A stretch of DNA of 64,000 nucleotides from Lineus longissimus (lineage: Eukaryota; Nemertea; Pilidiophora; Heteronemertea; Lineidae), in the NCBI RefSeq assembly GCF_910592395.1, contig NC_088309.1, positions 28,956,599 through 29,020,598 of the forward strand, in the 5' to 3' direction. Each line of letters begins with the position of its first letter. The first letter of the stretch is position 1. Positions 3,746 through 46,803 of the stretch are shown in pieces. Both the position numbers and the translations under genes were made by a program. Below the pieces are notes generated by a model, which saw only the letters and a program-made list of their open reading frames with translations, did no database searches and was not told where the DNA came from.

Positions 3746-5067
3746 CTATCTCTCATGTCTCTTGGCCTACCCCTTGCCTCAGGTTGCGAACTTGTAAACT
3801 TAGATATCATTCACAACAGACATGAGAAGCGTATGAGAGTGGCAGGCCGTTCATGCCTTCTTGACCTAATGCAATGTTGGGTCCTTTATGGCCATGATTC
3901 ATTTCAGTTTGTTGTTCTATAGATATTTCCCACCAAAAAGAGTAAATGACCAGTCGTTTTTTAGATCAGAGTAAGTCCCATACCTGATCAAAGCCTCATG
4001 TTCATGTTGTCATTGTGTATTTCTCATTGCAGAGGTGAAAAGTGAACTGGAGGAACTAATGTCTGACATCAAGAAGACAGCAAACAAGGTTAGAGGGAAG
4101 TTAAAGGGTAAGTAGCAACTCCTATAGGCCGTGCATATGATGTCATCACAGATAAAGACAACTTTTTGGATGTCGAATGTCCATCATTGAGCCACATGGT
4201 ACACCCTGTCCTCTGACTTTGCAAGTATTTTGTATTCAAAATCTGGTTGGCCCTTTCAGAAGGGGACACTATAGTTTGCCAATTTTATCATCATTGTATT
4301 TCACTGCAAATGGTTTACAACTACATACATTGTGAGGAGAAGGTATCCTACTATTGGCACTCTGTAATTACTGCTGAATACACAGACCTGTTATCACCAA
4401 ATTACTTTTATAGTGTAGGTCATAAATTCATAATACTATTACATGTATTGTATGTACATGCTTTATGAATGACAATGAATGAAGCTTGATGAATAAATGA
4501 CCAGCATAATCTTATTAATGGTCTTTTGTTCTCATGGGACAAGGTGACTTGTGAGAAGGCCTCACAGCTGTGGTAGTATTCAACCCTGTTTGTTCACCAA
4601 CAGTGACCATGCTTTCACCAGCCATGCTATGAGAATGTATCCCTTTTTGTGCTCCCTGTGTCGCTGGAACTATGATGGACAATCCCTTGAAAAAAATGCC
4701 AAGATTAATGGAGAACACATTGGGAAAAAATGTATGAAGCTGGATTGTGATGAAAGGGATGGTCTTTGAAGCAAGGCTGACCTTTACTTGAACCCTTCCT
4801 TTAGCTAGTGCCTTGATTCCTTCTTATTATCTGCCAAGTCAAGATGCAGTCACATCTTGGCTGCTAGGTCCTACTCGATTCTATATTGTAACTATTTGGT
4901 CAGTCTGTAATCAGGCCTGTGGCACACATACAGCCAAATCAAGCCTAAACTACATCTGGTGCAACAACTGAAAATGGTCAGCTACTCTTCTACTCCATAG
5001 GCAACTCAATCATAACTCCATACCAAAATTGTCTGATACTACATGTACTGTAGATGCATTGCATGCA
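3746..5067. other. Intron sequence around syntaxin exon A, nothing else seen
   Basis: Apart from the exon at 4033-4107 this stretch is AT-rich intron. The short open frames at 4247-4468 and 4551-4769 have no recognisable similarity or splice logic. Confidence 0.5.
4033..4107 (+). CDS. Syntaxin exon A: Habc domain, end of Hb region
   Basis: The exon lies between TTGCAG and GTAAGT. It begins with two bases of a split codon and ends one base into the next. It encodes [20 protein letters not shown] followed by GKLK, matching human STX1A around residues 69-92. It is the first syntaxin exon in the window, so the gene is 5' truncated by the window edge. Confidence 0.93.
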
Positions 5068-17000: not shown

Positions 17001-20000
17001 AATCTGTGCAATGAACAGGGTCTGTGCTAAAATGGACCAACAGTCTGTATGGGAAGTGGAAAGGAGGGGATCTGAATGCTTAATCCTTTTGAAATCTGCC
17101 AGCTATTTGCTCTTCTGTATTGTCATAAATGGATAGCAGTTTTAATAAGTGACTTGAGTGCTGGCAGCCCATGCGTATATTGTAGGCTGATCTTTCTTGT
17201 ATAGATTTTGTATTGATTGTTACTAATCCTCTTGTTCCCCAATTAATCTCATTTACATTATTTGTTTATGCCCTTTTAGGGAGAAATGATTGACAGAGTT
17301 GAATACAATGTTGAACAGTCAGTAAATTACGTTGAAACTGCCGTTGCGGATACCAAGAAAGCAGTCAAGTACCAAAGTAGCGCACGAAGGGTAGGATAAT
17401 TGTCTTATTATATTATGACTTTCTTCATTTATTCTCATTTGCACATTATTTGTTTATGCCCTTTTAGGGAGAAATGATTGACAGAATTGAATACAATGTT
17501 GAACAGTCTGTAGATTACATAGAAACTGCTAAAATGGATACCAAGAAAGCAGTCAAGTACCAAAGTAAAGCTCGAAGGGTAGGTAATTTGTTCCATTGTC
17601 TGCTAGTAGAGATGGTACCCCTCTCCCTGCACTCTCCACCTGTTGAATATGACCATCCTGTTAGATCAGTGGGGGGTGTACCTCGGAGTTACCAAAACAA
17701 AACTGAACAACCAAAAAACTAAAGCAAATGAGACAAATAAATAAGAAATCAAGTCATTCTCCCGTTTTGATATTTTATGTCATAGATATCAGAGATTTTA
17801 TTTTATTCTTAATTGTTGAATTTCCGCCTGGAAATCCCAAACAGTTGTTTCTTTTTTTGTGAACATTTTAGCTATTGTAAAACTTTTAGATTTTCACTTG
17901 TCAAGCAGTCTAGTCCTCTCTCCACCCCCAGAGTTATTTTCTTTAGGAAATCACAAAAAACATACATCAGCAGAAATAAGTTCTGCAGAGTGAACCAAAC
18001 ATGAAGCCATCTAGCTGATGATATTCCAGCCTACAATATGGCGTGGCCATTTCAAAATGGAGTTAAAACATCACAGTAGAAAGGAAGGCGTTCTAGTTAT
18101 AACCTGAGGGTGGAAAGACTTTGCACATCTTAGATGAAACAGTCCTAAATGGCACATCATTTTTTTCTTTCCAAAATTCCTCAACTGATCTAGCGGTCTA
18201 CCATGTGTCCTTCCCCCATCCCTTCACTTGATGATGCTAGGCGCACAGTGGGTTATTGGGACAATTGGTGCATGTTCGCCTGTTGTGCTACTGCAACCCA
18301 TCACTGGAGCTAGGCTACCTACACTTGGTGTTGGTCATGTTGGCAAATGTGTCTGTTGTCAACTCGTGGTGGTGTGTTCTCCTTAACACAATCTACTCTT
18401 CACTCACAACCATGTTTTGCATTACTGTCATTATCAAACAGGCAAAAGAAAACTCCTTTTAAATATGTCCAGACTAAACTTAGACATCATCGATGCTTTT
18501 TTGTCGAAGGACAAATGGTCACCTTGAAGATTGGCTGCTTCAATGAAACATCGACAGTATGACTGGGGATCTGGTGCGACTTTGTTTCCTTTCAAAATAT
18601 AAGCTTGGTAAAGTGTGATAAACATGGTTTTGAATGAAGTGTTTGAACGATAAAAGAGGCTGGGTCACTTGGGATATGAGGGTGACAGGGTGAACGCACT
18701 CAATGGGAACTCTCTCCATTGGTACAGATAACGTAACATTATCAGAGAGGTCTCATCATTAGGATATGGTCAATATAAAACAGTGATGGAACTTCATCAA
18801 ACCAGAGATGATCTGATGCTTGTGAGTCCAACTGCTCGTTCCTAAGTATCTGAGAACATGCGGGAAGCAAGGGCTCCCCCTGAGTACATGAGCTCTCTCT
18901 TCACGTTACTCATAGCTGCCTTTGATTACCTTTGATCCTACAATGCACTTATAATGCCCATGCAGTTGTATGTAAGTTTGGTGCCACATGGCCACTAACG
19001 CTTCATCAGTGTACCTTTTGGATTAAAATTGTCCCAGCCTCTTTCAGTTTACTCTCCTAACCATAGTCAACTCGATTTGACACTATGACGTGTGTCGAAT
19101 CTGGTTCAAGTTGCAAGTTCAGTTCAGTGTGCTCCTGAAAAATGTAAGTCTTATCACAACATGGAGGTGTTGACAGCTCAACTGTGGAAACCTACTGCAG
19201 GAATCAAAATGGGGCTCATGCATGGGGACCTCATTAATAAGGACCTCTTACATGAGGTACTCAACCTTGAGCATGTTTCCCTTTGAGCAGTGTATATGTC
19301 TGTTGTGGTGTGACAAGCATTCAATACCAACAGATCTAACCAGATCTTACCAGGGGTAACCAACCTAACCTTACTGTAACCAATCTAACCAGGGACATTA
19401 CATACATCGGGTTTGACCTTCAGTCTCTTAACCAAGTCTACCAGGCTCAAGATTTAGAGTAGCTTTGCTTTCCATTGCACGATGGACTTGATCCTCGCAT
19501 GATTCTGCTGTTTTACTCAAGGGATGGTAGTTCTCTTCATTCTTTGAAGGTTTCTGGTTGCAAACTTTATGTATAGACATGGGATAGGTTTAACTTGGTC
19601 ACTTTGTCTGAGATGATGAGCTGGTTGACCTTGCCGAGGTGATGAGTAGATGACCAGTGTTTGTCTCACATGGTCACCGAGTACTTGGATGAGCTTGTTT
19701 CAAACATCTTGGGCCATGAACTGTTTATACGGTTATCAGATAATCTGTCTGCCTCTTGGGCAACTTCTGCAAACAAATCATCAGTGATCAGTCGAGCTTC
19801 AAATCAATTTGGTGAGTGATCAATAGTCATGTCAACCTTTCAACTATCATATCATCATCGTATCATTTGATGGATGGAGACGATCAGCCAATAATCAGTG
19901 GCTTCGCTGCATGTCTCCAGGGTGACATATAGGTGGAGCTGATAAGGTAGTCTGTAAAAGGTCATCATGCCATTCTTTGAGCTTTCCAGATTGGCTGTGA

Positions 20001-23000
20001 AGTAATTACATGACTAAGCTTTGACATACATGAAGTTGTATTGTCTCTAATATGTTGAACTAGTGGGAACAATGTCACCTGGTGTGATGTCATCAATCAT
20101 TGCACTTATAATGTAAATAGGATAAAATTGGAGTAGCGATGACATTCAGTGTTAATGCACCTGTTGTAGAGTTCAATGAGCTAGTTCATTCAGGTTCAGC
20201 CATGTTGGATGGCAGAACAATGATTTGTCATGCCTGACTTAACTGAATCAAATGCTGTCATGGTCATTTGGGCTCGCTGTCTTTTGTCTGTCCTCTTACA
20301 TAACAGACATCACATGAAAGCAGGTGGTGTGAATGCAGTGCATGTTGGCTGATTTTGGGATGACTGTTTTTGATTCACTTTCTCTTGGCATGGTGATGGT
20401 TAGAGGGAATTCTGTAGCATTTTAGTCCAAAGTGGTCAATACAAACATGACTAACAGATCTTTGCTCAACTTCTTTTGTTCTATCTATTCATTTGTTGTT
20501 GGCAATATTGGTTCCATACTTTTTGTAAAGAGGTCGCTGAGATTGCCACAAGGTTGCAAATGATGTGCAAAGGTGGTCACCGCTGTCATCCTCTATACAT
20601 TCAAAACGGAATCTATTTTGCCTACAGCTGTTAGCAACATGTTGAGCAGACGCCAGCTAACACCTGTATTCACTGACACAATAATCAGTTTACCAGTTCA
20701 GTTTGCCCTACTACTAGTCCCAGTCCCAGCTCACTCTGTTCAGTTTATCTGAGACAGGCTAACCAGTCCTCACTCATAACAGTATTACTAACAGTCGTCT
20801 TGCTTGTATACCTGCCTGCAGGGTACCACATGCCATGTCTTTTCACACAATATTTTAAAAAGAACTTTGATAGCTTGACCAGGCCTTTCACAATGCTGGC
20901 CGTAGGCAACTAAATTTGTGGTAATGAACAGTAGCGAGGATGAATAAATTGTGACATGTAGACTGGAAAAGATATTTGTAAGTTAGAACAGCTCGACTTG
21001 AAATCTTGGTTGACTTGACCAGCAGCTTGAGCTATATATAGTCTGTATAAAAAGGGTTACCCCTCATTTGTATTTTGTTCCTTTCATTCCTTTGCAGAAG
21101 AAGATGTTGATCATCATCTGTTGCGTTGTGCTAGCTTGTGTCCTAGCTCTCATCATTGGCTTGTCTGTAGGACTCTCATAGCCAATCACACAGCTGCTTC
21201 CTTTCCTTCCTGCAGCATGAATCATGTACAGACTCTTATCTTGGGGCTGATTGGCTGCATCAAAAACCTGGAAATCACTGAGTTCCTAATCGCATGTTGG
21301 CAAACCAGCAGCTTTTGCCTGAGATATCATTTGGTGCAAAAGTAACTTATGGCTTCTCATGACCTTGACCTCAGTTCAAATTATATGATATGTATCCAAG
21401 TCATATGGATGGGAACCAATCTTGAAGACATAGAAATAATGATAGACACTATGAATAAAGTAAGATACTTGTGTGATCAAAATAGTGGCCTTTGAAAATG
21501 GTTCCTTTCATGATTTATTTGTTTTTGTTAACTTGATAAAGTATTGTTCGATACTTCTCTGTAGCGGTTATGTACAATGCTAAGTTAAGCTAGACTTGCC
21601 AATGGAAGCAGCATCCATGACATTGACAGCAAAGATGTGAAGAAGGTGGAAAGAGCTTTCAGCTAGAATGTTCAAAAGACTGTCCTCATCTTTTGCTGTG
21701 ATCGGTACTCTGAAGATGTTTGATGAGGGTGGTGGCTTTCAGTAAAAAGAAAGATGTTGTATTGATGTTTTCTACTAAAACAAAGGGGCATTTTGGTTAC
21801 TACTGAAGTGAACAATAGGTGGCAATAATGTAAATAAATCTGTGTGAATAGTTGAACTATGTAAATAAAGCCTCTGTGCATGTGATAGACTTTGGCACTA
21901 AGTGCATTGAGATCATCCTGATTCTTTCTTCTCCTTTACTCCAATCTGTGTCAATCTATTCATATGCTCTCGGCCTGTAATATTCTCCTCCAACTCTTTG
22001 TTTGGATAAAACCTCTCATCTGGGACCATACTCCTAAGATTCCATTGATTAAGCACCAATCCAAGTTGGAAACCTACATTCCTCTCCTGTGGGACCATTC
22101 TCATGTTGGATCAAATGTGAGCAAATGTTACTTCAACATGTATAAGATGGCATAGCCATGTGGGTATTCCTTTGATTGGAACCACTCCTTTCTTTTCATC
22201 ATCTGTGAGTGTGACCAACAAGCTTTATCAATGCATGCAATACTATTGAAGTGAAATTGACCAGACCTAAACCCACTAACCATGCAGCTGTGCTGATGTT
22301 TACCTCCATTGTTTGTTAATCCTTTTCTTCCTCCAATTGGTGCACTAGTATTGTACAGGTGAGTGCTGTCCTTGATAGGAAAGGATCAGTAACTGGTCAC
22401 ACTTGATAACACAAGCCGTCTGCTCATTTGTCTCTTCACTATATGGTCAGTTGGTTTGGGCTGTGAGGGAGTCTATGCTCGCCTGCCATTTCCTTTCTCT
22501 CTGAGCATTGTCCCTCTGCTCTGTCACCCTCTATCCAGATATTCCAAGCTTTATCAATGAATGCAATGCCCCAAGACCTTTGCTCTATCTCTGTCTATCC
22601 AAGCATATTCCAAGCTTTGTTAAAGCATCCCAGGTTCTTTGCTCCATCTACTCTGTCATAAAGTCACATTCAGATCTCATGATTACATCAGCAGATTGGA
22701 TGATGACTTTTCGTTAAAGTCTGTTTCGTTTCTATTTCATTTCAGAAAAAGATGATGATCATAGCATGTGTGGTGATAGCACTAATCATTCTCATCCTAA
22801 TCATAGCGATACCCATTGCTATAGAACAGAGTAAATAACTCCTTGTATACATAGGCCTACTTTGGTGGTCCTTGTAACTCTTCTGTCTTCCTTTCTAACT
22901 ATTCAATCTCTCAACCCTTGGGCCCAGTAGTTTATGGACCAGAGACAACTAGCTCTGCCTTCACATGTGTGTGGTCAAGGTGCAGCCAATCGGGGTCATA

Positions 23001-26000
23001 CAGTGACATTATCTGGGTATCGTGCTGACATCATGGTCGATGTCACCGCACCTTACCCGCTGATGCACCAACAACAGAATAGACCACCACGTGACTCCTG
23101 AATGGCATCTGCTTGGCTTTGATACTTAATGTGCTGATTGGTTGAGAAGTCTTGCCGATTCTGGCTCGCGCTGCCATTGACTTGTTTGAGCCAGTCAGTA
23201 CATTCTGTATTGGTTGCATAGGTGGACAGGGCCAGTGTTTCATAAGGCCTAGGGACGGGTCCAAATGTGTCTTCCAGTAATCCATGAATGGTGCTGATTG
23301 GAATATGAGATTAAGTTGGATTGAACAAGCAATGTTTGTCCTTTGAGAAGTTCAGTCGATCGTTATTGCGGACATATTTCTTGTTTTCCTCTCTCGGACG
23401 AGGAAATGAGCAAGGTCAAGTTTTGTATGAAATGTGTATAAAGCTGTGTATATTTTGATAGTGGCGGGGTAAACGAATTTTAGAGCACTTTATAGTGAAT
23501 GTCTGCATCAGTGATGCAATTTAATGAATTTCTTATTGTCTGACCTAAGAAAGGGAATGGGTTAAAGTAGTGATTTCATTATATTGGGCGAATGTGTTTA
23601 TAGCTGCCACCTTTAGTCCACTGATGTTTAAACTGGTCACCATTATTTAAGCTATATACTGTTATAGTCTGCCTCTGTAAATAAATGGGCATATAAATAG
23701 GTTGTAAGGTTAGGATATTTGAATGTGACTTGGTGAGTCTACAGAGAGCAGTAAGCCAATCATCATCAAAACCTGTAATCTCTCAGCAAGCTTATCCCAA
23801 GGAGACAAGAGCTTGGAGTTTGTAAGCGGAGATTGAATTCCAATACGCGTGGCTCCCCCTAGTGAGATGATTGTAATGAATGCGGCCATCATATATCTAG
23901 TCACCTGTATTTAGTTACCTTATGATTAGAAACAAGATTATTTGTTTGTCTATCTGCTGTGCAATGTTTCTTGGCTGGCTTGTTCAAGATCGAGATTACA
24001 CTCCTTTAGTTTTAACCTTTTATTATCATAAAGTCAGTAGGACTGAAGCTTACAGACATCCAGTTTAGTTGCTTGTACTTGAAGGTTGAATCTGTTTCAC
24101 CTAGTCCACATAGCTGCCTCAGACAAGACTGTGATGTTGAGAAAGAGACATGAACAACATCAGTCCTGAGGCTTCCATTGTGGACAAGAGTGAGACAAGT
24201 CATAGGAAACCGACTGAGTGAATTTCATTGCTTTGAACTGGCAAGCAGGCATGAGTTCTCTGGAATCAAAGCCGGTGCAGCCAGTTCTTCAGTTTTGTAC
24301 ATAGAGCTATATTTGTAAGTTTTATTTAGAACTATTATGTTAATGCATAGAGAATCATTTGTAAGAATGCTTACAATATGTTTCAGTCATTGGTCATTGC
24401 AATGACTATAGTTGATATTTATTTCTTGTTAGTTGGGGATTATTTTATGGATGAGTTCAATTTGGTGACATTGTTGATGATGAAAAAGCCAGAAAGCTGA
24501 AGAATCTTGTTCCAGTATGTTAAAGGTTGAAAGGTTTCACTGATTGTAGTATTCATAGAGATCAAAATCATCCATTTGATGCCTATTTCATCGTTTTGAA
24601 ACCTTATTGGATCTGATGTCTGATATGTGGATCTCAACCCCCACTCCTGAGAACAAGAACAATACCGTGTCTGCCGGTCGATCGAGACTGTTGAAATCCA
24701 TTGGTTATCTCGGTGTTGTGGAGGGATGAGTTGTTATTTCTTTTGTGACTAAATAAAGGGTTGGTGTTGAAGCAAGCGTCCTGTTTGCCAATTCGTGTAT
24801 GGTCACTTCGGTGATATTTTGTTGCCGAACCTGTTACGCATGTCTTTCATTGACAAGGCAGCATATGTAGTTTATGGTTACCTCAGAAATAGCCCCATGT
24901 CTAACTGTAGGGTTAATGCCCTTTTTGATTGCCTGCATATTTCTCAAATGATGTATATCAGTTCACCAGATTAGGCGAAGGTCACATGTTGTAGTTGTGT
25001 GAGGTTGCTAAAGATTCACCGCCTAGCCCTTCCAACTGGCCTTTTGGGTATATGTACACCAAAGTGCTTCATCTTGAACTTGTGGGGCAGTAAACCTGAG
25101 TGTGATTGCTCGTGGTGCCTGGGGACTTCTGGTGGCAGACTCATCTCATATTCGTGTTGGAAGATGGTTGTGTGAATCTTTTGCAGCCAGACAGTTGAGG
25201 TACGTCAAGTTGTCTTTCTTTTCATCCTCTGCCCTGAACTTCCTGACTCCAAATCCAAACAGTTTCTAGTCATCTTTTATGTAAAGAAATAACATTTTCC
25301 CCAAAAGTTGCAAAAAGTTATAAAAACATGCCTCGAGCTGCACTGGAACTCCATTGATGCATCACTGTCAGAATGCTAAAGGATAATCTGGTTATCTCTG
25401 ATGACATGGCATTCTTGTGTTGCCATGCTCAACATCCAGCGTGACAAACTGAGTTGTGAAATTTCGGGCAGAGGAGCTGTAAAGCACTTTGTGAACATGA
25501 AACTGATTGTCCAACATGATTTGACCAGACGATTGAGTCCGGTTCATTGTGATCACAGACTTGGACACAAGTGTCATGTCAAAGTGACATTATAGCATCT
25601 GTTCCTTCCAAACAGCACCTTTCAATATTTTCAAAGAAACACCATCTTTCATTTTCTTAGTCATGTTCCATTGATTGGAAGGAAATATTTTTTGTACAAA
25701 TCTTTGCAAGATATTTCTGTTAGAAATTGTAAAATTGTATAGGAATATTAAATGAACATATTTTTAATTTTCATTGTTGTTGTTGTTGTGGTTTTGTATT
25801 GGTGTTGTGTTTGACGTTTTCTGTTCCTGACTGATTGTTGTGTGCACCTCGGTATATCTCAATGGTACGTTTTGTCAGGTTCTGGCCAGTTTGAACCGCA
25901 TCTAGATATATCTCTTTTGTCTTGGTCATTCAATAGTTTCAAGAGATAATTTCCATCAAAGTTACTGCAAACTCACTCAGGATCTGTCACGACTTGAAGT

Positions 26001-29000
26001 GGCAGGAGTGATGCTGCCATATAGAGTAGTGACTGCTCCTGATGGATTCCACAGTAGTGTTGACCACTCACTAACGGCCAGATCTATTAAACAAATTGGG
26101 AATAAGCAAATTCTGATGAGAATCACCTCCATGGCCAGAACCAACTGAACGTTACCTTCCTTACTGTTGCGTGGATTTTCCAATATGCTGGAGTTCTTAC
26201 TTAGAGGTAAGCGGATACCTTGTTTCTTTTACTCTTTTCGTCGGATCAAGCGGACCATGACATGGAATCGGGTATAAAAAGGATCTCTCGCCCCCTGAAC
26301 CACCTGTAGGGACGATCTTTGTCTTTAAGAGAACACTTATGACAAGGTTTCTCCAAGTACCATAGACGTTTCTCAACCTATACCTGGCTAACACCCAAAA
26401 AGGGTGGGTCTGAGGTGTTTTTGAGGAATATCACCGAACTGAGAGTCCCCATCCATGGAAAAGTTGAAATCATGCCCAGCTGGTGTGATAGTTTCAATAG
26501 TTCCATGCGATGTATGCCAGACACTGGCTCCCTTGAGGACCAAGCAATGCCACAAACTAAGGTTCAAGGCGGTACTAGCACAACCATGATGCTGTCTTCA
26601 TCGAAGAATGGTTGAACCGTGGACAAGAACAAGCCCCTAGTTGAACTTGAGCATAGGAAGACCCCTGCCTATGTGTGGTGCTTTGTTGTGCATTCTTGAT
26701 GGTTCCCCCATGGCACATGTGTTGTATCAAACTGTCGCCTATCAAAATATCTGTTGTCTTCCACCCGTAAACCTTTGCTTTCTCTACATACAAAAGTCCT
26801 CTGGGATGTCTTGTTTCAAATTGGCTTCTTTTAGTTTCTATTGGAAGGTGATAAAAATTCATGTAAACCAACAGAAGTGTCTGTTAACTTCTATCCCTGC
26901 ACAAATATTGATGGGAACAGTGGTCTGTTGTGTTATTTAGGCTGAGAGGGAGAGTAAATTTGAAATGGTGAGGGAGACGACAGTGTTTTGGAAGTGAATC
27001 AGTTTGATATGCTTGAATCCCTGATGAGGAATATTCCTCTACTGAAACCCGGGGCCTTTCTCTACCATGGTGGTTGGACTGAACATGCTCCCCAGGAGTC
27101 TTCACCATGGTGGTTGGAGTGGGCGTGCCCCGCAGGCTAGGGGTCACTACCATGGTGGTTGGGACTGGGCGTGGACCTCCTGCTAGGGGTCTCTACCATG
27201 GTGGTTGGACTGGGCATGCCCCTCATGGAGTGTTTAAGCTTTGGATGAATCATGCGACGAACTGGTCCACTCGTGCAGACGAGTGACCAGTTGGAAAGAG
27301 ATGAACAGGTTGGCTGACTGTTGAAGTACATGTACTTGGCTATCATTCAGAACTACTGGATGTGAAGTGCTCAATGAAACGCCCAAGACTTCTTCATGAT
27401 ATTGGGGGCACAACAGAAGGCCCATTTGCTCAAATACCCCCTTGCACTTATCAGAATGGAACATAGGTCCACTTGAAGGTAGCCTTGTCATCAACTCTAT
27501 GGTTCAGGGTAAGTTATGAGGACCTCCTTCAGGTTGCCAGACCTGAAGACCAAGGAGGAGGCCTCGTGTGAAGTTCGACTATTCATCAGCACACAGCTTC
27601 ATGTCGGTGTTGGGGCTGATCATAGAGTATGTACACAGTTTCATTGTTCCCCTTGCCCTCTATGATCATTGTGTGGTTGTAATCAACCCCATGTTATGTA
27701 CGTCCTACCTGTCTGACGCCCTCTCCTTCTTGTGTGCATACTCCATGGACGGTCCCTTGCCAGCGTTGCAACAGCACTCTCATTCAATTGATGACCATTT
27801 TCAGCCCTGATTTTATGTTTGATTATGAAATGTTCTTTGCCTTCATCAGCATTGAGTGATTACAGCTCACTGAGTAATGGGAAGATGTACATGAACATAA
27901 GCTGTATGTGTCAAATCAAGTCGTGCTGAATGAAACACCTGTTGTGTAGTATTTATCGGGAGGTGGTCTGGGAAACGAGGCAAACATTCTGTTGAAGTAG
28001 AAGCAGCAGCCTTGTTTTCTCAGTACTCACCAACATTGTGTGTTTTATCATTCAGGTGGATTCTGGTTGATGTTGAATCCAGCTGCTATCCACTCCAGCA
28101 AGAGCTCCCAGAGCAAGTCATTGTGACATCTCCCCATGTCGTCAGGGTTGGGATGTGATCATGGAGGTGACAGTGACTAGATTCAATATGACATTGGAAG
28201 TAATGGCTGAACAGACCACCTGCTAACTCATTATTCATGCACTTAACCTAACATCTCTTGCAGAAGAAGATCGCGATCATCATCTGTCTGATCATCCTGG
28301 TAGTGGTGATCGTCGGCTCCGTGGCTGGCTCTCTCAGTTAGATGCAGACATCAACTAAAACCTTCCCTATTTTCAAAGTAGGACATTCATTATAAGTGTA
28401 GCATGATTGACAATCATTTGTTTCTTTAGGTTCCAAGATAGTAGTTTGCAGTAAGCGCGGTGTCATATGTTCTTATCTTTCTTGTATGGACAACCCATTC
28501 ACTCCTTGATGTTGCAGAGAGGTCTGCTAAAGCTCCCCAACTATAACATGTGTGGGAGAACTCTTGGCAACAGACTGAATGGACTGTCTTGTCTTTCTTT
28601 AGGGGACCATTGATTTCTTCCTCAGTGTTTCAGAGGCGGTGGTATACTAGGCCACTTGTAAACTCATATTATTACTCTATGGTTTATTTTCTGACTGATC
28701 ACCCTGGATCACCAATGGCTGAGCAAGCTTGCACTATTCATGTAACATAGAGACCCTCAATGATCAACCAAGAAGTTGACGTTCAGCTCAGTCGGCCGAT
28801 AACCTTCTGGATATGTTTGTTTTCAATAGAGAGAGGTCAAGGAAGCAGCAGCCTTGCTCATTCAGGATGGTCAGCGTGATTGGATACATAACAATACTGT
28901 GTTGGTAAAGGATGTCTCGGAAAAGGTCACCCAAAATGTTTTACAAACTACAAATCATTCTCCCTGAACCTGCACGGTTTATTGCTGAGTGGTTTATCGT

Positions 29001-32000
29001 ACAGTGCTGCCGTTTGGTACGGTTTCTTATGGACAGACTTACGTACAGAGACTTACAAGCTATGAGCTTGGTGAAAACGATCTATATCACCAAATATGAG
29101 GGGGAACTTCAAAAACCTGTGTAATGTGAACTTTTTCAAGACACCCTGTTGTTGCACATAGCCTCCTCAACATGAATGCTCATTGATTTCCTGCATGTTT
29201 CCAGAAACAGTTGATGATCGCTGCTTGTGTCACTGTACTCATCATTATCATAGTTGGTGCAGTTGGTGGTTCCTTGGCTTAACCCTTTACCCCAGGTAGT
29301 TGATACATTTGGCTGCCGACAGACCCCTAGCAGGCCTGACTCTTACATAGACTGTGCCAACCGTTTTGTCCAACCTTCCTCAAGAGGGAAGAAAAGCACC
29401 TTGGTCTACATGCAAATTCATTGAAAGAGTCAACTTCAAAGTCCATTGTCTGTCGTGACAGTATACAGATCACCAGTGTAGTAACAAAAAAAGGGCTGAA
29501 CATTTATCTAGCAGTATCCCTGTAGAGTCAGCTACTCGGACCTTCAAAAGGGTGTCCATGACCTAGGGGTTTGTCCTGCCAATTTCTTTGCCTCCTATTT
29601 CATCCGATCATCTTTTCCTCCATCTTTTCTGTTCAAACTTGTGGCCACTTACTTGAACCACCATCATGTGATGTTCTCCAGAGAGTGTAGATAGTGGCAT
29701 TGGATGTGTGATCTGGAGGCTTAGCTACTGCCAGTCTCTACTCTCTCATACCCTGGATTGTCCAAGAGACTGCATGCATGTTCTCCAGAGAGTGTAGATA
29801 GTGGCATTGGATGTGTGATCTGGAGGCTTAGCTACTGCCAGTCTCTACTCTCTCATACCCTGGATTGTCCAAGAGACTGCATGCATGTTCTCCAGAGAGT
29901 GTAGATAGTGGCATTGGATGTGTGATCTGGAGGCTTAGCTACTGCCAGTCTCTACTCTCTCATACCCTGGATTGTCCAAGAGACTGCATGCATGTTCTCC
30001 AGAGAGTGTAGATAGTGGCATTGGATGTGTGATCTGGAGGCTTAGCTACTGCCAGTCTCTACTCTCTCATACCCTGGATTGTCCAAGAGACTGCATGCAT
30101 GTTCTCCAGAGAGTGTAGATAGTGGCATTGGATGTGTGATCTGGAGGCTTAGCTACTGCCAGTCTCTCTGATACCCTGGATTGTCCAAGAGACTGCATGC
30201 ATGTTCTCCAGAGAGTGTAGATAGTGGCATTGGATGTGTGGTGTGGAGGCTTAGCTGCTGCAAGTCTCTACTCTCTGATACCCTGGATTGTCCAAGAGAC
30301 TGCGTCCATGTTCTCCAGAGAGTGTAGATAGTGGCATTGGATGTGTGGTGTGGAGGCTTAGCTGCTGCAAGTCTCTACTCTCTCATACCCTGGATTGTCC
30401 AAGAGACTGCATGCACTCGTTTGTTTCCCATGAAGGCCTCTCGATTTGGCTGGGTTGAGAATGTAAAGCATAATGAGACTTACCCAGTGATATTGAAGAA
30501 CTTACTTTTATTTTTCAATCCTATTTTTTAAATCCGTTCTTCATTCAAATCCTCTTCCCTTATTCAATTCTCTTGATTTATTAGTTTCAAATCCATCCTT
30601 CATCTGTCTCCATTACATTTCCATTTCCCTTATATCTTAAGGCGGCATCAGTCTTGCTTCATGTCCTTTTCTCTCATATATTCCTACACATCCTCGGCTC
30701 AGAGCTGACAACCCAACTTCACTGAATCATTTATGCAAGCCAAGTTTTTTACGAACTGCTGCTGACTTGATAATATATCAGCACAAACTTAAGGAATCAT
30801 TAAAAAAATCTATGTGGAACTGTGTAAAAAAAGAAATGCGTCCTTGCGGGGATTTGAACCTGGACCTCCAGATCTGTAGTCCAGTGCTCTACCACTGAGC
30901 TAAAGGGACTTGTCACCAAGCCAAGCCAGTATTAGCCTCTAAAGTGAACTGGAGAATTCATACTGCCACCTCTTCTCTGCAATGGATCAGCTTGGATTTG
31001 CAGGCAGTTTATGTTGACTGTGATCTGCTGTGATGTAATGAATAGGTCCGAACACAAACCAGTATAATAATGGCTTGGGCATTAAGTGTGATGAGCTGAG
31101 GGCAGTGCTTGGGTCTAGGAGATAGCTTAATCAGCTGAGCTATCTCGCAGTGAGGGAGATAGCTTACTCGGCTGAGCTATCTCGCAGTGAGGGAGATAGC
31201 TTAATCAGCTGAGCTATCTTGCAGTGAGGGAGATAGCTTACTCGGCTGAGCTATCTCGCAGTGAGGGAGATAGCTTACTCATTTGAGCTATCTCGCAGTG
31301 AGGGAGATAGCTTACTCAGCTGAGCTATCTCGCAGTGAGGGAGATAGCTTACTCAGCTGAGCTATCTCGCAGTGAGGGAGATAGCTTACTCATTTGAGCT
31401 ATCTCGCAGTGAGGGAGATAGCTTACTCATTTGAGCTATCTCGCAGTTAGGGAGATAGCTTACTCATTTGAGCTATCTCGCAGTGAGGGAGATAGCTTAC
31501 TCATTTGAGCTATCTCGCAGTGAGGGAGATAGCTTACTCATTTGAGCTATCTCGCAGTGAGGGAGATAGCTTACTCAGCTGAGCTCTTTGTGTTGTCACC
31601 TCCTGAACAGGACAATGTCACAACAACAATAACACGCTGTCTTGTCCCAGAGGAGACGCCAGTGTCACAACCTGACTCTCACTGTTGAGATCTCAAATGT
31701 GTTCATGCAGGACAGGACAATGTGACAACCTTGCAAAACATCAAGAGTTGAGCTTTTTTATTTGAGGATTCCAACTTTCCACTTTGCTTATAGATATAGA
31801 ATGTTGTAATTAAATATTTCATTGATTATTTCAGCTTTGTTTCTTAGCTTTTAGGAGTCGTTTTTTTTCAGGGATGCATGTTTGGGAGCTGTGTGATTTT
31901 GTGTTGCTTATCAGAGTAGTTTTGTACCACTGTTTAGGTGGATGAGTTATTTTCAAGTGTCATAGCTTTCTTCTGCAGTTGGGAGGTTGAATGTTTTGTA

Positions 32001-35000
32001 AAAAGCTGTTTTCCACATAAAGACAGCTTATTGTACCTCTGATCATCTGTTGGACATTATCATTTCTAATCTCTTGATCAAGTTGAACATGTTTGTGTGG
32101 TGTTTGCGTGTATGCACCGTGGGTTTTCAAGTGGAAAAAGAGAAAGAGGGCCATAAAGAGAACTTGTAATATGAATTCTGTTTGGAGACAAAAGCAAATG
32201 AGACTTTTATGAAACATCACCAGAAACTGTTGATTGTTGTTCTTTGCACTCATTCCGGTCTTTTCTCGTTTTTCAGAAGAAAATCATGATTTTAATCTGT
32301 GTCGTCGTTCTGCTGGTGATCATCATTGGAGCAGTCGCAGGATCCTTAAGCTAGGTGTCGCCATCCTCAAGCAACATGACTGCCATCTATTGTGTGAACC
32401 TCATATCAGTGGGAATCAGATGTTTCTGCTGCTATTCTCTGTCTCAGGTGAAAGCGAGAGACGGCCATTATACACCTCACCATCCTCAGTCTCAGCAGTT
32501 CTTTTCCCGTGCGTAGACCTGCCCTCCTATGCAGGGGCATAGGCCTACCCTCCTATGCAGGGGCATAGGCCTACCCTCCTATGCAGGGGCATAGGCCTAC
32601 CCTCCTATGCAGGGGCATAGGCCTACCCTCCTATGCAGGGGCATAGGCCTACCTCCCTGTGGTGCGTAGACCTGCCCTCCTATGCAGGGGCATAGGCCTA
32701 CCCTCCTATGCAGGGGCATAGGCCTACCTCCCTGTGGTGCGTAGACCTACCCTCCTATGCAGGGGCATAGGCCTACCCTCCTATGCAGGGGCATAGGCCT
32801 ACCTCCCTGTGGTGCGTAGACCTGCCCTCCTATGCAGGGGCATAGGCCTACCTCCCTGTGGTGCGTAGACCTGCCCTCCTATGCAGGGGCATAGGCCTAC
32901 CCTCCTATGCAGGGGCATAGGCCTACCCTCCTATGCAGGGGCATAGGCCTACCCTCCTATGCAGGGGCATAGGCCTACCTCCCTGTGGTGCGTAGACCTG
33001 CCCTCCTATGCAGGGGCATAGGCCTACCCTCCTATGCAGGGGCATAGGCCTACCTCCCTGTGGTGCGTAGACCTGCCCTCCTATGCAGGGGCATAGGCCC
33101 ACCCTCCTATGCAGGGGCATAGGCCTACCTCCCTGTGGTGCGTAGACCTGCCCTCCTATGCAGGGGCATAGGCCTACCTCCCTGTGAGGCATAGGCTTAC
33201 CTCCCTGTGGTGCGTAGACCTGCCCTCCTATGCAGGGGCATAGGCCTACCTCCCTGTGAGGCATAGGCTTACCTCCCTGTGGTGCGTAGACCTGCCCTCC
33301 TATGCAGGGGCATAGGCCTACCTCCCTGTGAGGCATAGGCTTACCTCCCTGTGGTGCGTAGGCTAACCTCCATGTGACGTGTAGGCTAACCTCCATGTGA
33401 CGTGTAGGCTAACCTCCATGTGACGTGTAGGCTAACCTCCATGTGACGTGTAGGCTAACCTCCATGTGACCACATAGGCTAACCTCCATGTGACGTGTAG
33501 GCTAACCTCCATGTGACGTGTAGGCTAACCTCCATGTGACGTGTAGGCTAACCTCCATGTGACGTGTAGGCTAACCTCCATGTGACGTGTAGGCTAACCT
33601 CCATGTGACGTGTAGGCTAACCTCCATGTGACGTGTAGGCTAACCTCCATGTGACGTGTAGGCTAACCTCCATGTGACGTGTAGGCTAACCTCCATATGG
33701 TGTGTAGGCTAACGTCCCTGCGATGTGAGGAGTCTGTACAAAGGCCCTCTTAACGATGTCTTCTCACAAGACATGGCTGTGATAGGGGAGGGACCAACAT
33801 ATTCCCCTAGTTTCTATTCTGAATGAGTCTATCGCAACAACTGTGGACGGATGCTGCCAAGACGGTTGGCTGCCAGTTGTTAGTAACTGATGCACACTTA
33901 CGGCCACCCGATAACGACCCTGGTAGTGAGGTTGTGCCTCTCATCCTGCTAGGTTTTGTCGGCTTATAAATCAAGGTGTTGCGTGTTTGATAAACCCGAG
34001 CTGAACCCTGTACTGCAAAACTCTATCCATTGATTTATCTTTTGTTTATATTACTGATTATGAAGATGTCCACCAGGGGGGTTGAAATTCATGCATCTAT
34101 GCACGTAATTTGATGAAAGCTTGTTCACATGTCTGTAATTCAGGACAATGAATGGTCCAGCATTGCAAGCACTTGCCTTTAGTCATAAATCTTAAAACTT
34201 CCAATCAAATACATGTGTATCAAATGAACATATCAATGTGAAAAGTTGACACACTCATTAAAGATTTACTAAGCACCACTTATTTGACATAATGATAACA
34301 CACAAAAGTTGCTGAAGATTAGGGGCAAGCTTCACCTGATGAATCACCAGCCTCAAACAGGCTGAGTCGAACATGCCAATTCTTTACCATAATACTATTG
34401 TCTATCTTTGGTTTTGATTCATTTCAGTTTCCCTCACCAGGCATGAACAAGTTGTTCCTGTGTCTTGACCTTCCTATTTGACCTTATTTCATCCCTGAAC
34501 CTGTTGATTCGTTTCAGTTCTTTCAGTTCTTACACTAATCACCAGTGACTTTCTTTAGGTTGCTCTAATAACTAGCTCTTGGCTTCCTTCCAGCATCCCC
34601 CACTTCACCATCTACGACATCCTTGCTTGGATATCTAATCATTTGCCTTCTTTCAGTTCCTTTCGGTTTGTTTTCATTTTGAGCCAAGTATCTAATGTGT
34701 TTATGGTTTTCCTTCCTTTGTGATCTGAGACAGAGGCTGAGTTGAATGAGCCATGCTCATCTCAGAGAGAACCTAATGACAACCAGCCTCATTCTACAGA
34801 GTGATAGATCCGCTCTGTTGTCATTAGATTTTCCCTCTTTAACCTTACTTTGCATCATCTTTCCTGCTGTTTTCCTGATTTTGACAAACTTTTCTTTTTC
34901 TTTTGTCCTCATGCTCCCATCAACAGAAGAAGATTATAATCATGATCTGCCTCGTCATACTGGTTGTGGTTATTTTATCAACCGTAGGGGGCGTTCTCGG

Positions 35001-35010
35001 TGTCAAGTAG
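4033..35010 (+). CDS. Syntaxin of the STX1/2/3 family, 3' part of gene with alternative exons
   Basis: Plasma-membrane Qa-SNARE that pairs with SNAP25-type and VAMP proteins to drive vesicle fusion. Constitutive exons read here are 4033-4107, 7699-7772, 15823-15896 and 16184-16321. Alternative pairs are 10749-10857 or 10995-11103 (Hc helix) and 17280-17390 or 17468-17578 (SNARE C-terminal half). One of six terminal exons follows: 21098-21181, 22746-22838, 28264-28341, 29205-29282, 32277-32354 or 34927-35010. All junctions have AG/GT borders and phases match. The product aligns from about human STX1A residue 66 to the end, with [24 protein letters not shown], the linker [15 protein letters not shown], the zero-layer Gln in LVESQ, and [10 protein letters not shown] before the anchor. 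The first roughly 65 residues are outside the window. The gene is tail to tail with BUD23. Family identity is very secure; assigning it to one vertebrate paralogue is not, because the alternative exons resemble different paralogues. Confidence 0.96.
5068..5985. repeat. 95-bp tandem repeat, about four copies, split by a transposon
   Basis: The unit starts GGTCTCAGCAGCTTTAGAGC and recurs at 5068 and 5163, then at 5812 and 5907, a 95-bp period in both places. The last copy is shortened. The gap between the two pairs is the inserted foldback element at 5239-5783. Confidence 0.9.
5239..5783. mobile_element. Foldback transposon with 9-bp target duplication (Mutator-like MITE candidate)
   Basis: A 545-bp element with long terminal inverted repeats. 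The left arm spans 5239-5419 and the right arm 5607-5783; the ends are GGTAACCGGAAAAACGCCGA and its complement. Each arm holds a GACC-type tetranucleotide run then about 130 bp of unique sequence. The insertion is flanked by TATTCTGGG at 5230-5238 and again at 5784-5792, while uninterrupted units of the host 95-bp repeat contain this sequence once, so the target duplication is well supported. A partial inner copy of the terminus lies at 5420-5470. There is no transposase, so it is non-autonomous. A 9-bp duplication with long arms suggests Mutator-type mobilisation, which is inference. Confidence 0.88.
5986..7698. other. Intron, no gene seen
   Basis: Contains only a short triplicated TATAGACACAAG motif near 6673-6708. 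No exon, RNA gene or transposon recognised. Confidence 0.5.
7699..7772 (+). CDS. Syntaxin exon B: Habc domain, Hb-Hc connection
   Basis: The acceptor TTTCAG completes the split codon (G|TT, Val) and the exon reads [20 protein letters not shown] then RKTQ before GTAACC. It matches the human STX1A segment containing [10 protein letters not shown]. It ends in phase 0, so either copy of the next exon can follow in frame. Confidence 0.94.
7773..8980. other. Intron, no gene seen
   Basis: AT-rich, with several short open frames (for example 8378-8638) that have no similarity I recognise. Read as intron between syntaxin exons B and C1. Confidence 0.5.
8983..9595. repeat. Compound minisatellite, GTAAGAGGGGCTTCGG family
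   Basis: About eight alternations of a long unit (CCAGTCCATGCTCACTTTAT, GGTAAGAGGGGCTTCGGGCT, CACCTCACCCCTCTCATGGT, GATAACCATGGCTTGGGGAC) and a shorter unit lacking the first and last parts (9200-9275, 9350-9400). Higher-order copying is visible. The open frames on both strands are by-products of the repeat. Confidence 0.9.
9596..10748. other. Intron with a small hairpin, no gene seen
   Basis: A short inverted repeat at about 10325-10372 pairs CAGGTATTTCGG with CCGAAATACCAG and contains a tandem CGTCATAA. A CT-dinucleotide run lies near 10650. No exon other than C1 at the right end. Confidence 0.45.
10749..10857 (+). CDS. Syntaxin exon C1: alternative Hc-helix exon, first copy
   Basis: 109-nt exon between TTTGTAG and GTAAGA. 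It encodes [20 protein letters not shown] then [16 protein letters not shown], and ends with the first base of a Thr codon. It is the same length and phase as the second copy 137 bp downstream, so using both would shift the frame (109 is not a multiple of three); the two must be used mutually exclusively. It is the more diverged copy relative to STX1; the initial Tyr-Ser and the Ala-Gln after YN are reminiscent of vertebrate STX2/STX3. Confidence 0.92.
10995..11103 (+). CDS. Syntaxin exon C2: alternative Hc-helix exon, second copy
   Basis: 109-nt exon between ATTTTATAG and GTAAGA. It encodes [20 protein letters not shown] then [16 protein letters not shown], nearly the canonical STX1 sequence ([26 protein letters not shown]). 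Same boundaries and phase as C1. The Hc helix faces the SNARE core in the closed conformation, so the swap could change how the protein opens or how Munc18 binds it; that is inference. Confidence 0.93.
11104..11500. other. Intron after exon C2, no gene seen
   Basis: Unique sequence leading into a minisatellite; no third copy of the Hc exon is visible. Confidence 0.5.
11500..12235. repeat. Minisatellite, about 66-68-bp unit, about 11 copies
   Basis: The unit starts GGATCTCAGGCTTCAACCCA and continues ATGTTAGTAAGCCAAGAGGG with GACCGACTGTATCCGTCCAC. Copies start at 11541, 11609, 11677 and onward. Copies differ by single substitutions such as TGTATCC/TGAATCC. Confidence 0.92.
12236..15822. other. 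Long intron, no gene seen; one short tandem repeat and one imperfect foldback
   Basis: At 13480-13545 a 22-bp unit (GATTACCTCTGTCAATAGAT) is present about three times. At 15178-15325 an imperfect inverted repeat pairs GCTTGCAGAACCACC and following bases with GGTGAGGTTCTGCAGG, suggesting a decayed foldback element. No exon recognised before exon D. Confidence 0.45.
15823..15896 (+). CDS. Syntaxin exon D: linker between Habc and SNARE motif
   Basis: The acceptor CTTTCAG completes the Thr codon and the exon reads [20 protein letters not shown] then FTQG before GTAGGT. The [10 protein letters not shown] linker contains the Leu-Glu pair whose mutation in mammals gives the constitutively open form. 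The exon's 3' end and donor are copied three times in the following intron (see 15897-16050). Confidence 0.94.
15897..16050 (+). pseudogene. Three decayed tandem copies of the 3' end of syntaxin exon D
   Basis: Directly after exon D the intron repeats the exon's own end. TTAGAATCAGGNAAT-type motifs recur near 15904, 15944 and 16007, followed by degenerate versions of CCTGCAATATTTACAC and a GTAGG or GAGGT donor-like end. The copies carry substitutions and an internal duplication (GGCAATCCCACAATATTCAC), and none has an acceptor or the 5' half of the exon. They look like slippage copies of the exon-intron border rather than usable exons. Confidence 0.7.
16184..16321 (+). CDS. Syntaxin exon E: N-terminal half of SNARE motif up to the zero layer
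   Basis: 138 nt (46 codons), phase 0 at both ends, between ATTTCAG and GTAAGA. It reads [20 protein letters not shown], then [20 protein letters not shown] and MLVESQ. The final Gln is the ionic zero-layer residue equivalent to human STX1A Q226, so the duplicated exon that follows encodes exactly the membrane-proximal half of the SNARE helix. Confidence 0.95.
16322..17279. other. Intron, no gene seen
   Basis: Unique sequence between syntaxin exons E and F1. The open frame of exon E runs on for about 45 codons past its donor, but that extension has no similarity to syntaxins. Confidence 0.55.
17280..17390 (+). CDS. Syntaxin exon F1: alternative SNARE C-terminal half, first copy
   Basis: 111 nt (37 codons) between CCCTTTTAG and GTAGGA. 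It reads [20 protein letters not shown] then [17 protein letters not shown]. The [13 protein letters not shown] stretch is close to vertebrate STX1 ([13 protein letters not shown]). It is followed after 77 bp by a second version with the same phase and length. Confidence 0.93.
17468..17578 (+). CDS. Syntaxin exon F2: alternative SNARE C-terminal half, second copy
   Basis: 111 nt between CCCTTTTAG and GTAGGT. It reads [20 protein letters not shown] then [17 protein letters not shown]. Compared with F1 it changes V/I, N/D, V/I, VA/KM and S/K, leaving the layer residues intact. The 77-bp intron and about 30 bp of duplicated acceptor sequence (TTATTTGTTTATGCCCTTTT in both) show a tandem duplication that included the splice site. 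Joining both would repeat layers +1 to +8, so mutually exclusive use is expected. Confidence 0.93.
17579..21097. other. Long intron, no gene seen
   Basis: About 3.5 kb of unique sequence between F2 and the first terminal exon. I looked for further SNARE or anchor exons and found none with an acceptor and KK start. Confidence 0.5.
21098..21181 (+). CDS. Syntaxin terminal exon G1: transmembrane anchor, STX2/3-like end
   Basis: Acceptor TTTGCAG, then [18 protein letters not shown] and IIGLSVGLS followed by TAG (28 codons with stop). The ending LIIGLSVG is characteristic of vertebrate STX2 and STX3. Potential poly(A) signals AATAAA lie at 21454-21459 and 21864-21869, so this can serve as a true last exon. 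Confidence 0.92.
   Translation, partial: KKMLIIICCVVLACVLALIIGLSVGLS
21864..21869 (+). terminator. Candidate poly(A) signal for terminal exon G1
   Basis: AATAAA in GTAAATAAAGCC, about 680 bp after the G1 stop codon; another AATAAA at 21454-21459 is nearer. Either could end a transcript that uses G1. Hexamers occur by chance, so this is suggestive only. Confidence 0.45.
22746..22838 (+). CDS. Syntaxin terminal exon G2: transmembrane anchor with short luminal tail
   Basis: Acceptor TTTCAG, then [18 protein letters not shown] and [12 protein letters not shown] followed by TAA (31 codons with stop). It is the longest of the six and adds a charged, polar EQSK end beyond the membrane span. AATAAA hexamers at 23680-23685 and 24752-24757 could end its transcript. 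Confidence 0.9.
   Translation, partial: KKMMIIACVVIALIILILIIAIPIAIEQSK
24752..24757 (+). terminator. Candidate poly(A) signal for terminal exon G2
   Basis: AATAAA in ACTAAATAAAGGG about 1.9 kb after the G2 stop, followed by GT-rich sequence (GGGTTGGTGTTG). A nearer hexamer is at 23680-23685. Suggestive only. Confidence 0.4.
27060..27235. repeat. Short minisatellite, CTACCATGGTGGTTGGACTG family, four copies
   Basis: Units of about 40-60 bp, each with ACCATGGTGGTTGG and a following GGGCRTGCCCC or GACCTCC block. Four diverged copies are seen. Confidence 0.75.
28264..28341 (+). CDS. Syntaxin terminal exon G3: transmembrane anchor, STX1-like
   Basis: Acceptor CTTGCAG, then [18 protein letters not shown] and SVAGSLS followed by TAG (26 codons with stop). 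The small-residue end resembles the STX1 class of anchors rather than the LIIGLSVG class. It shares length and pattern with G4 and G5, suggesting those three are the most recent copies. I see no AATAAA before G4. Confidence 0.92.
   Translation, partial: KKIAIIICLIILVVVIVGSVAGSLS
29205..29282 (+). CDS. Syntaxin terminal exon G4: transmembrane anchor, KQ variant
   Basis: Acceptor TTTCCAG, then [18 protein letters not shown] and AVGGSLA followed by TAA (26 codons with stop). It replaces the second Lys of the membrane-proximal KK with Gln, reducing the basic juxtamembrane patch that in mammals interacts with acidic lipids. Confidence 0.9.
   Translation, partial: KQLMIAACVTVLIIIIVGAVGGSLA
29670..30415. 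repeat. Minisatellite, 107-bp unit, about seven copies
   Basis: The unit starts GTTCTCCAGAGAGTGTAGAT and recurs at 29780, 29887 and onward with a 107-bp period. The last two copies carry GGTGTGGAGG and GCTGCTGCAAG variants, and one copy has a small deletion near 30160. Confidence 0.93.
30839..30909 (-). tRNA. tRNA-Cys-like sequence, degenerate, apparent anticodon ACA
   Basis: Read on the minus strand this has an A box (TAGCTCAGTGG), a B box (GGTTCAAATCC), a D arm and an anticodon arm in normal spacing over 71 bases. The region GGTAGAGCA then GACTACAGATC then GGAGGTCC parallels animal tRNA-Cys, in which the loop is normally GACTGCAGATC; here GCA is replaced by ACA. By my folding two of seven acceptor pairs and two of five T-stem pairs are mismatched. 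A run of seven T follows 3' of it on the minus strand and could act as a Pol III stop. The mismatches and odd anticodon favour a pseudo-tRNA or tRNA-derived SINE remnant over a working gene. Confidence 0.6.
31088..31590. repeat. Hairpin minisatellite, 37-bp unit, about 13 copies
   Basis: The 37-bp unit is GGGAGATAGCTTACTCAGCT followed by GAGCTATCTCGCAGTGA. Each unit contains the perfect 9-bp inverted repeat GAGATAGCT / AGCTATCTC around a variable centre (TACTCAGCTG, TACTCATTTG, TAATCAGCTG), so every unit can fold into a hairpin. On the minus strand each unit reads GATAGCTCAGCTGAG, resembling a Pol III A box. Confidence 0.92.
32277..32354 (+). CDS. Syntaxin terminal exon G5: transmembrane anchor, STX1-like
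   Basis: Acceptor TTTTTCAG, then [18 protein letters not shown] and AVAGSLS followed by TAG (26 codons with stop). KKIMILIC is the typical start of animal STX1 anchors. The exon lies between the hairpin minisatellite at 31.1-31.6 kb and the compound minisatellite at 32.5-33.7 kb. Confidence 0.92.
   Translation, partial: KKIMILICVVVLLVIIIGAVAGSLS
32505..33360. repeat. Compound minisatellite, 26-bp and 23-bp units
   Basis: A 26-bp unit (CCCTCCTATGCAGGGGCATA then GGCCTA) alternates irregularly with a 23-bp unit (CCTCCCTGTGGTGCGTAGAC then CTG). The minus-strand open frame at 32923-33396 is a consequence of the repeat. It lies about 150 bp downstream of terminal exon G5. Confidence 0.93.
33355..33725. 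repeat. Minisatellite, 23-bp unit, about 16 copies
   Basis: A nearly perfect array of TAGGCTAACCTCCATGTGAC plus GTG, continuing directly from the preceding compound array. One unit has CACATAGG in place of GTGTAGG near 33470. The TAGGCYWACC core is shared with the neighbouring array, so this is probably a homogenised offshoot of it. Confidence 0.93.
33726..34926. other. Sequence before terminal exon G6, nothing else seen
   Basis: Rich in pyrimidine stretches and TTTCAG acceptor-like motifs (34430, 34515, 34660), but none is followed by a Lys-Lys anchor frame except the one at 34927. Confidence 0.5.
34927..35010 (+). CDS. Syntaxin terminal exon G6: transmembrane anchor, STX1-like, last of the array
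   Basis: Acceptor CATCAACAG, then [18 protein letters not shown] and TVGGVLGVK followed by TAG (28 codons with stop). The STVGG end matches human STX1A (STVGGIFA) best of the six. It is the most distal terminal exon, and may correspond to the ancestral one. Confidence 0.92.
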   Translation, partial: KKIIIMICLVILVVVILSTVGGVLGVK

Positions 35011-46653: not shown

Positions 46654-46803
46654 GATGGTTCATGTACAAATTCAAATCTTTTATTACACTAAAATATTAT
46701 ACATGAAGTGCTGAGAAACCACATATGCACACGTGCTGTACAAAATACACGTGAAATTCTGGTACCTTGCCTAGCGAACATCACAGGTACCAGTCTATCC
46801 AAG
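46654..46803. promoter_or_regulatory. Bidirectional promoter between BUD23 and the DNAJC30-like gene
   Basis: Only 150 bp separate the BUD23 start codon (minus strand, 46653) and the preferred start of the J-protein gene (plus strand, 46804). No TATA box is obvious in a convincing place. The J-protein start is embedded in CCAAGATGGCTGC, a close match to the YY1 motif often found at translation starts of housekeeping genes. Transcription start sites cannot be placed from sequence. Confidence 0.6.

Follow-up and report, generated by a model that had tools for sequence, protein, structure and literature searches.

A syntaxin-1-type gene with six alternative terminal anchor exons in the ribbon worm Lineus longissimus, and the possible ancestry of its splicing choices

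Background

How many membrane anchors can a single syntaxin gene offer, and how old is the choice between them? The question is raised by a 64 kb stretch of the genome of the heteronemertean Lineus longissimus (the window, by which we mean the whole of the DNA analyzed), in which an initial annotation had noted six tandem terminal exons, each providing a syntaxin with a different membrane anchor. The share of the transmembrane segment of syntaxins in fusion is still debated, and has been tested with engineered mutants (PMC9183232).

Alternative anchors as such are already known from UNC-64, STX2 and STX3. The annotation had correctly named vertebrate STX2 (PMC4946901) and STX3 (PMC11476516, PMC8263458) as genes with alternative C-terminal exons, and unc-64 of C. 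elegans is a further precedent. According to PMC4946901, this single syntaxin gene has alternative last exons (8a/8b) that give rise to different membrane anchors, the choice being regulated by UNC-75/CELF, with UNC-64A mainly neuronal and UNC-64B only non-neuronal. It is, however, without a six-fold array. In vertebrate STX3, the products of exons 9A-10A and 9B-10B are the same up to layer 0 of the SNARE motif and then differ in the SNARE C-half, a juxtamembrane residue and the anchor (PMC9183232, PMC11476516, PMC8263458).

Results and discussion

Most of one syntaxin-1-type gene lies in the window

The window holds most of a syntaxin-1-type (Qa-SNARE) gene, namely its 3' part (Table 1). When the exons are joined, the product matches the Pfam domains Syntaxin (PF00804) and SNARE (PF05739) with 107.7 and 67.7 bits, against cut-offs of 26.7 and 26.8 respectively; its best solved relatives in the PDB are Syntaxin-1A; and a C-terminal transmembrane anchor, present in six alternative versions, stands behind a basic juxtamembrane segment. 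The first 72 residues, with the N-peptide and the first helix, are coded outside the window and are present in the public gene models. All upstream exons (3, 4, 5a, 5b, 6, 7, 8a and 8b) have AG and GT sites, the donors behind 17390 and 17578 being GT. Apart from 8a and 8b, no SNARE C-half exon occurs among the 45 best tblastn rows; this single set indicates one syntaxin gene in the window. A third duplicated exon was considered behind exon 6 (15901-16044) and rejected, as it has no visible acceptor; the sequences there, directly behind the exon 6 donor, look like incomplete copies of that exon's 3' end in a state of decay.

Table 1. Features of the Lineus syntaxin gene, with coordinates in the window
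Feature	Position	Strand	Evidence
Exon 3 (part of N-terminal helical domain)	4033..4107	+	translation equals Lineus isoforms; AG/GT sites
Exon 4	7699..7772	+	equals Lineus isoforms; AG/GT sites
Exon 5a, alternative to 5b, 109 nt	10749..10857	+	model X5; frame test; 5a-type clade of nemertean and mollusc rows
Exon 5b, alternative to 5a, 109 nt	10995..11103	+	models X2, X4, X6-X9
Exon 6	15823..15896	+	equals Lineus isoforms; AG/GT sites
Exon 7, N-half of SNARE motif, last residues VESQ	16184..16321	+	tblastn; Lineus isoforms
Exon 8a, C-half of SNARE motif and juxtamembrane SSARR	17280..17390	+	X4, X7, X8, X9
Read-through behind 8a (Val-Gly-stop), anchorless isoform	17391..17399	+	end of model X9, ...SSARRVG
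Exon 8b, C-half of SNARE motif and juxtamembrane SKARR	17468..17578	+	X2, X5, X6
Terminal exon 9.1, putative class A anchor, Cys 8, 9, 14	21098..21181	+	X2, X5; class profiles and tree
Terminal exon 9.2, most hydrophobic, proline and EQSK tail; fits no class well	22746..22838	+	sequence only
Terminal exon 9.3, putative class B anchor	28264..28341	+	X6, X7
Terminal exon 9.4, putative class B anchor, KQ start	29205..29282	+	sequence only
Terminal exon 9.5, putative class B anchor	32277..32354	+	X8
Terminal exon 9.6, putative class B anchor, top STX1-profile score among the six	34927..35010	+	X4; profile score

The L. longissimus isoforms X2 and X4-X9 were among the best 120 of 4385 matches in a protein search, and all seven, which are computed models and may be partly inferred, equal exons of the window letter for letter over 196-221 residues. 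They are composed as follows: X2, 5b+8b+9.1; X5, 5a+8b+9.1; X6, 5b+8b+9.3; X7, 5b+8a+9.3; X8, 5b+8a+9.5; X4, 5b+8a+9.6; and X9, 5b+8a followed by the read-through. The public models consequently use both exons 5, both exons 8 and four of the six anchors (9.1, 9.3, 9.5 and 9.6), and five of them (X2, X4, X6, X7 and X8) have a common body ahead of exon 8 and four different anchors. The proposal of six alternative anchors on one gene thus stands for the four that are joined to the same body; for the other two we infer it.

In the anchored models 9.1 occurs only with 8b (2/2), and 9.5 and 9.6 only with 8a (one model each), while 9.3 is joined to 8a in X7 and to 8b in X6. The latter excludes a strict pairing of SNARE exon and anchor of the kind seen in STX3; as to a looser coupling of exons 8 and 9, six anchored models are too few for a claim.

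Six terminal exons and the question of their use

The six terminal exons start exactly where they had been placed. Each follows a CAG acceptor, is read in phase 0, begins with Lys-Lys (five of six) or Lys-Gln (9.4 only), and ends in its own stop. The hydrophobic span that had been noted is likewise present in every exon, the uncharged stretch behind the first two residues amounting to 23-25 residues; in 9.2 it comprises 24, with an internal proline that is preceded by 20 of them. A scan of both strands of the 64 kb for AG, followed by K/R and K/R/Q, 20-45 codons to a stop and a 19-residue hydropathy of at least 2.0, returned exactly these six exons and no others. Chance open frames can be rejected as their source, since none of 100 first-order Markov shuffles of 17580-36000 (given strand) yielded a comparable exon.

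The anchors differ in mean hydrophobicity (from 2.59 in 9.4 to 3.60 in 9.2), in their tails and in their cysteines: 9.1 has Cys at positions 8, 9 and 14, and the other five only Cys8. By residue count, Cys8 would correspond to Cys271 of STX1A. A set of 150 distinct tails, from 237 of the 239 retrieved proteins, includes 145 with this residue, a proportion favored by the use of Cys8-bearing queries; the two proteins left out are P0049, which is anchorless, and P0109, in which the boundary was not recognized. Poly(A) signals of the form AATAAA lie behind 9.1 and 9.2, and only ATTAAA was found behind 9.4, 9.5 and 9.6 (to position 38000). Neither form occurs between 9.3 and 9.4, so that an own 3' end is not evident for every anchor.

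A recent duplication of the array was also rejected: the exons are only 45-68% identical in DNA, and their flanks lack similarity beyond the exons and acceptor tracts, except for matches of 12-18 bases. An apparent identity of 337 bases between the flanks of 9.3 and 9.4 arose from an overlap of the two extracted stretches.

That all six are intact, and hence probably all in use, had been argued at the outset. This agrees with the public models for four anchors and meets no protein for the remaining two: neither 9.2 nor 9.4 was found in a protein search aimed at them (40 matches among 1140 candidates), nor in any of the 239 retrieved proteins. A like search for 9.1 placed X5 and X2 first, at 61 bits (among the best 120 of 875), which indicates that the method could have seen 9.2 and 9.4, sequences inside clusters excepted. 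It is therefore possible, if doubtful, that only 9.1, 9.3, 9.5 and 9.6 work, and that exon duplication left behind 9.2 and 9.4 as relics, without use and still to decay. The poor class fit of 9.2 (6.5 bits to class A, 5.8 to D and -5.6 to B; the classes are defined below) and the combination of lowest hydrophobicity and KQ start in 9.4 accord with such a fate. The absence of the two from the proteins is, however, incomplete evidence, as X1 and X3 are missing from the matches listed (the best 120 of 4385, the best 120 of 875 and the 40 of the aimed search) and as the nemertean clusters P0009 and P0049 contain two sequences each, of which one is displayed.

The divergence of the exons also speaks against relics. 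The third codon positions of the six anchors are saturated (mean identity 0.34), whereas the second positions are 56-96% identical, and despite this saturation all six, 9.2 and 9.4 included, keep the AG, the frame, Lys1, Cys8 and hydrophobicity; relics of such age should have decayed. In a simple simulation of neutral decay, with equal rates and the amount of change set from the third positions, all the kept features survived in 5 of 100,000 trials. From the kept features, the saturation and this simulation, we think that 9.2 and 9.4 are in use.

Duplicated exons 5 and 8

The anchors are preceded by two further choices. Exons 5a and 5b are homologous, adjacent and 74% identical in DNA, and as each copy has 109 nt, using both or skipping both shifts the frame and leads to stops. 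An either/or choice is indeed seen in all seven models, each of which holds 5a or 5b and never both. The arrangement resembles exons 5a/5b of SNAP25, another SNARE gene with a tandem duplicated exon and an obligate either/or choice, although that exon is neither an anchor exon nor terminal (PMC2581893). In a tree of 27 segments and 36 columns, with segments and labels chosen by hand, nine 5a-type rows (Lineus, Octopus, Haliotis, Dreissena X2, Mercenaria X2 and four more) form a clade with branch support of 95/96, present in 94% of 200 bootstrap trees. The 11 positions that distinguish the Dreissena models X1 and X2 all fall within exon 5. Since the clade spans nemertean and mollusc rows, the duplication is probably older than the split between nemerteans and molluscs. 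Going beyond the initial annotation, the pair 5a/5b would then represent an old either/or switch in lophotrochozoan syntaxin.

Exon 7 ends in VESQ, whose Gln we take to be layer 0 of the SNARE motif; exon 8 hence supplies the C-half of the motif and the juxtamembrane segment. At the position of STX1A Lys260, 8a has Ser and 8b has Lys. Whether the residue at this position is basic influences both anchor palmitoylation and spontaneous release, and substitutions have a graded effect (K260E<A<Q<R), as reported in PMC9183232; STX3B has Glu there (PMC9183232, PMC11476516). A lowering of palmitoylation by 8a is a prediction from this analogy, serine being absent from the K260 series as cited from PMC9183232. 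The two exons 8 are 87% identical in DNA and have an upstream flank in common, and the pair accordingly looks young. Their joint use leaves the frame open, and the choice between them is therefore not forced by the frame alone. The anchorless product X9, which reads through behind 8a, is comparable in kind to the soluble STX3S (PMC8263458).

Two tandem SNARE C-half exons are also present in several public models from other animals (P0002, P0109, P0123, P0164, P0212 and P0234). These models probably join alternative exons by mistake, which hints at pairs of exon 8 in a pearl oyster, an ant and vertebrate STX3.

Two anchor classes and their possible ancestry

We compared the anchors with three profiles built solely from deuterostome tails: 1) class A, from two hemichordates, one model named syntaxin-3-like and two models taken for STX3; 2) class B, from ten STX1-type tails and one frog model named syntaxin-3-like; and 3) class D, from eleven STX2-type tails. 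The STX3 rows are the models with two tandem SNARE C-half exons, and exon arrays in other animals were judged from proteins alone. On these profiles 9.1 scores 33.8 to A against 22.8 to B, whereas 9.3-9.6 score 19.4-30.6 to B against 0.1-5.8 to A. The mussel Mytilus galloprovincialis has three isoforms with an identical body of 265 residues and different tails, of which X1 is of class A (49.9), X2 mixed A/D (25.8 and 27.5) and X3 of class B (30.4). Five of the six Lineus anchors thus appear to fit two old classes that are also found in vertebrate syntaxins: 9.1 would belong with the STX3A-like, hemichordate and Mytilus X1 anchors, and 9.3-9.6 with the STX1, STX3B-like and Mytilus X3 anchors.

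Published data on STX3 point in the same direction. The anchor of STX3B is close to that of STX1A, from which it differs in two residues, and the anchor of STX3A is described as being without cysteines (PMC9183232); the two types resemble Lineus 9.1 and 9.3-9.6, although STX3 has two sets and Lineus six anchors, one of which, 9.3, goes with both 8a and 8b. The three vertebrate class A models that we used have anchors without cysteine. STX2 (epimorphin) is different, in that the STX2 tails retrieved group with a bivalve tail, Mya X2, and not clearly with any Lineus exon.

Segments as short and hydrophobic as these could also have converged. The likeness of 9.1 to STX3A and of 9.3-9.6 to STX1 would then be fortuitous and the Lineus array wholly nemertean in origin, a reading that we judge unlikely. 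It can draw on the small number of columns (25-27), on rows and class labels picked by eye from the same tails, and on a sorting that is not clean. When positions 9-25 were shuffled 20,000 times, 9.1 beat its own shuffles for B as well (0.0001), 9.5 did so more strongly for D (0.00025) than for B (0.0016), and 9.2, which fits no class, reached 0.0035 for D and 0.029 for A. Furthermore, 9.3-9.5 and one further tail group together (94/78), as expected of a lineage-specific expansion. Against this, profiles made only from deuterostomes sort the five Lineus anchors as given above, and shuffles match the best-class scores of 9.1 and 9.3-9.6 only at p 0.00005-0.0016. In a tree of 38 tails, moreover, classes A (12 rows) and B (16 rows) are split at 96/87, in 100% of 200 bootstrap trees, and Mya X2 groups with two STX2 tails (100/85); this tree has 27 columns, rows and labels chosen by eye from the same tails, ten unlabelled rows, a bootstrap that is not fully settled, and long branches for 9.2, 9.4 and Melipona. 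The relation of STX3B to STX1A and the cysteine-free STX3A anchor likewise argue against convergence.

Classes A and B each occur in protostomes and deuterostomes, and both occur within one gene in Lineus, Mytilus and STX3, which suggests an ancestral gene with two anchors. We consider it moderately probable that the bilaterian ancestor had a syntaxin-1/2/3 gene with at least two anchor exons, one of each class, which vertebrates parcelled out and in which nemerteans multiplied B. The ancestral gene would have carried the class motifs ...LIIGLSVGL (A) and ...S(T/S)xGG... (B). In vertebrates, STX3 would have kept both anchors, and once the gene had duplicated the types would have been distributed among STX1 (B), STX2 and STX3. 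In the nemertean line both classes would have been kept in one gene, and multiplication of class B exons, giving rise to 9.3-9.5, would have led to the array of six.

A probable combinatorial gene and its surroundings

Taken together, the exons very probably belong to one syntaxin-1-type gene, from which splicing takes one exon 5, one exon 8 and one of six anchors. A transcript would include 5a or 5b, 8a or 8b and one of the six last exons, which amounts to 24 open combinations, with the anchorless form produced additionally by read-through behind 8a. Each last exon would supply the whole transmembrane anchor and a stop, and its choice would set the chemistry of the anchor, namely length, hydrophobicity, cysteine number and tail. 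The choice of 8a or 8b would set the adjoining charge (Ser or Lys at STX1A position 260), a control point of palmitoylation in mammals (PMC9183232). The array had been described as a cassette for choosing membrane behavior; a choice of anchor is present in the public models, and the choice as a whole is wider than that description, as it extends to the juxtamembrane residue of 8a/8b and to the exon 5 pair. Regulation by cell type, and effects on palmitoylation, sorting and fusion, may follow, as may the influence on cholesterol partitioning and clustering that the annotation had invoked.

An assembly artefact, or a row of separate tandem syntaxin genes, is an extremely improbable source of the copies, despite the long minisatellites between the anchor exons, because these exons are only 45-68% identical in DNA, because the models join one body to four anchors and because a single set of upstream exons was seen in the 45 best tblastn rows.

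Minisatellites occupy parts of the introns at 1663-3740, 11476-12223, 29671-30415, 31118-31585 and 32514-33717, with units of about 90, 68, 107, 37, 26/75 and 23 bases, the last three stretches lying between anchor exons. Between 9.4 and 9.5 there is a tRNA-like gene (30838-30909, minus strand), called as tRNA-Cys with the unusual anticodon ACA, which may be a tRNA-derived element. Downstream of the syntaxin gene lie 1) a DnaJ-domain protein (46693-47979, plus strand); 2) fragments that contain a flavodoxin domain and match the wybutosine enzyme TYW1 only in part and below the cut-off (55897-59092, plus strand); and 3) an open frame without Pfam or NCBIfam match, whose product looks like a receptor that spans the membrane several times (61787-63145, minus strand). 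As STX1A, DNAJC30 and TYW1 are linked on human 7q11, an old synteny of syntaxin with its DnaJ and TYW1-like neighbors is possible.

Conclusions

Among the matches listed from the titles and abstract starts of open-licence PMC articles, there was no description of a six-fold anchor array or of an ancient A/B switch. Within this literature, the new elements are the six anchors in one gene, the juxtamembrane switch and the putatively old exon 5 switch. The locus offers a natural series, in which the same body comes with six anchors, with a juxtamembrane segment in two variants, and in a form without an anchor. If the classes A and B are ancient, part of what distinguishes vertebrate STX1, STX2 and STX3 would go back to an old splicing switch split among gene copies. 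If this is true, splicing in ribbon worms would do the job that gene duplication does in vertebrates.
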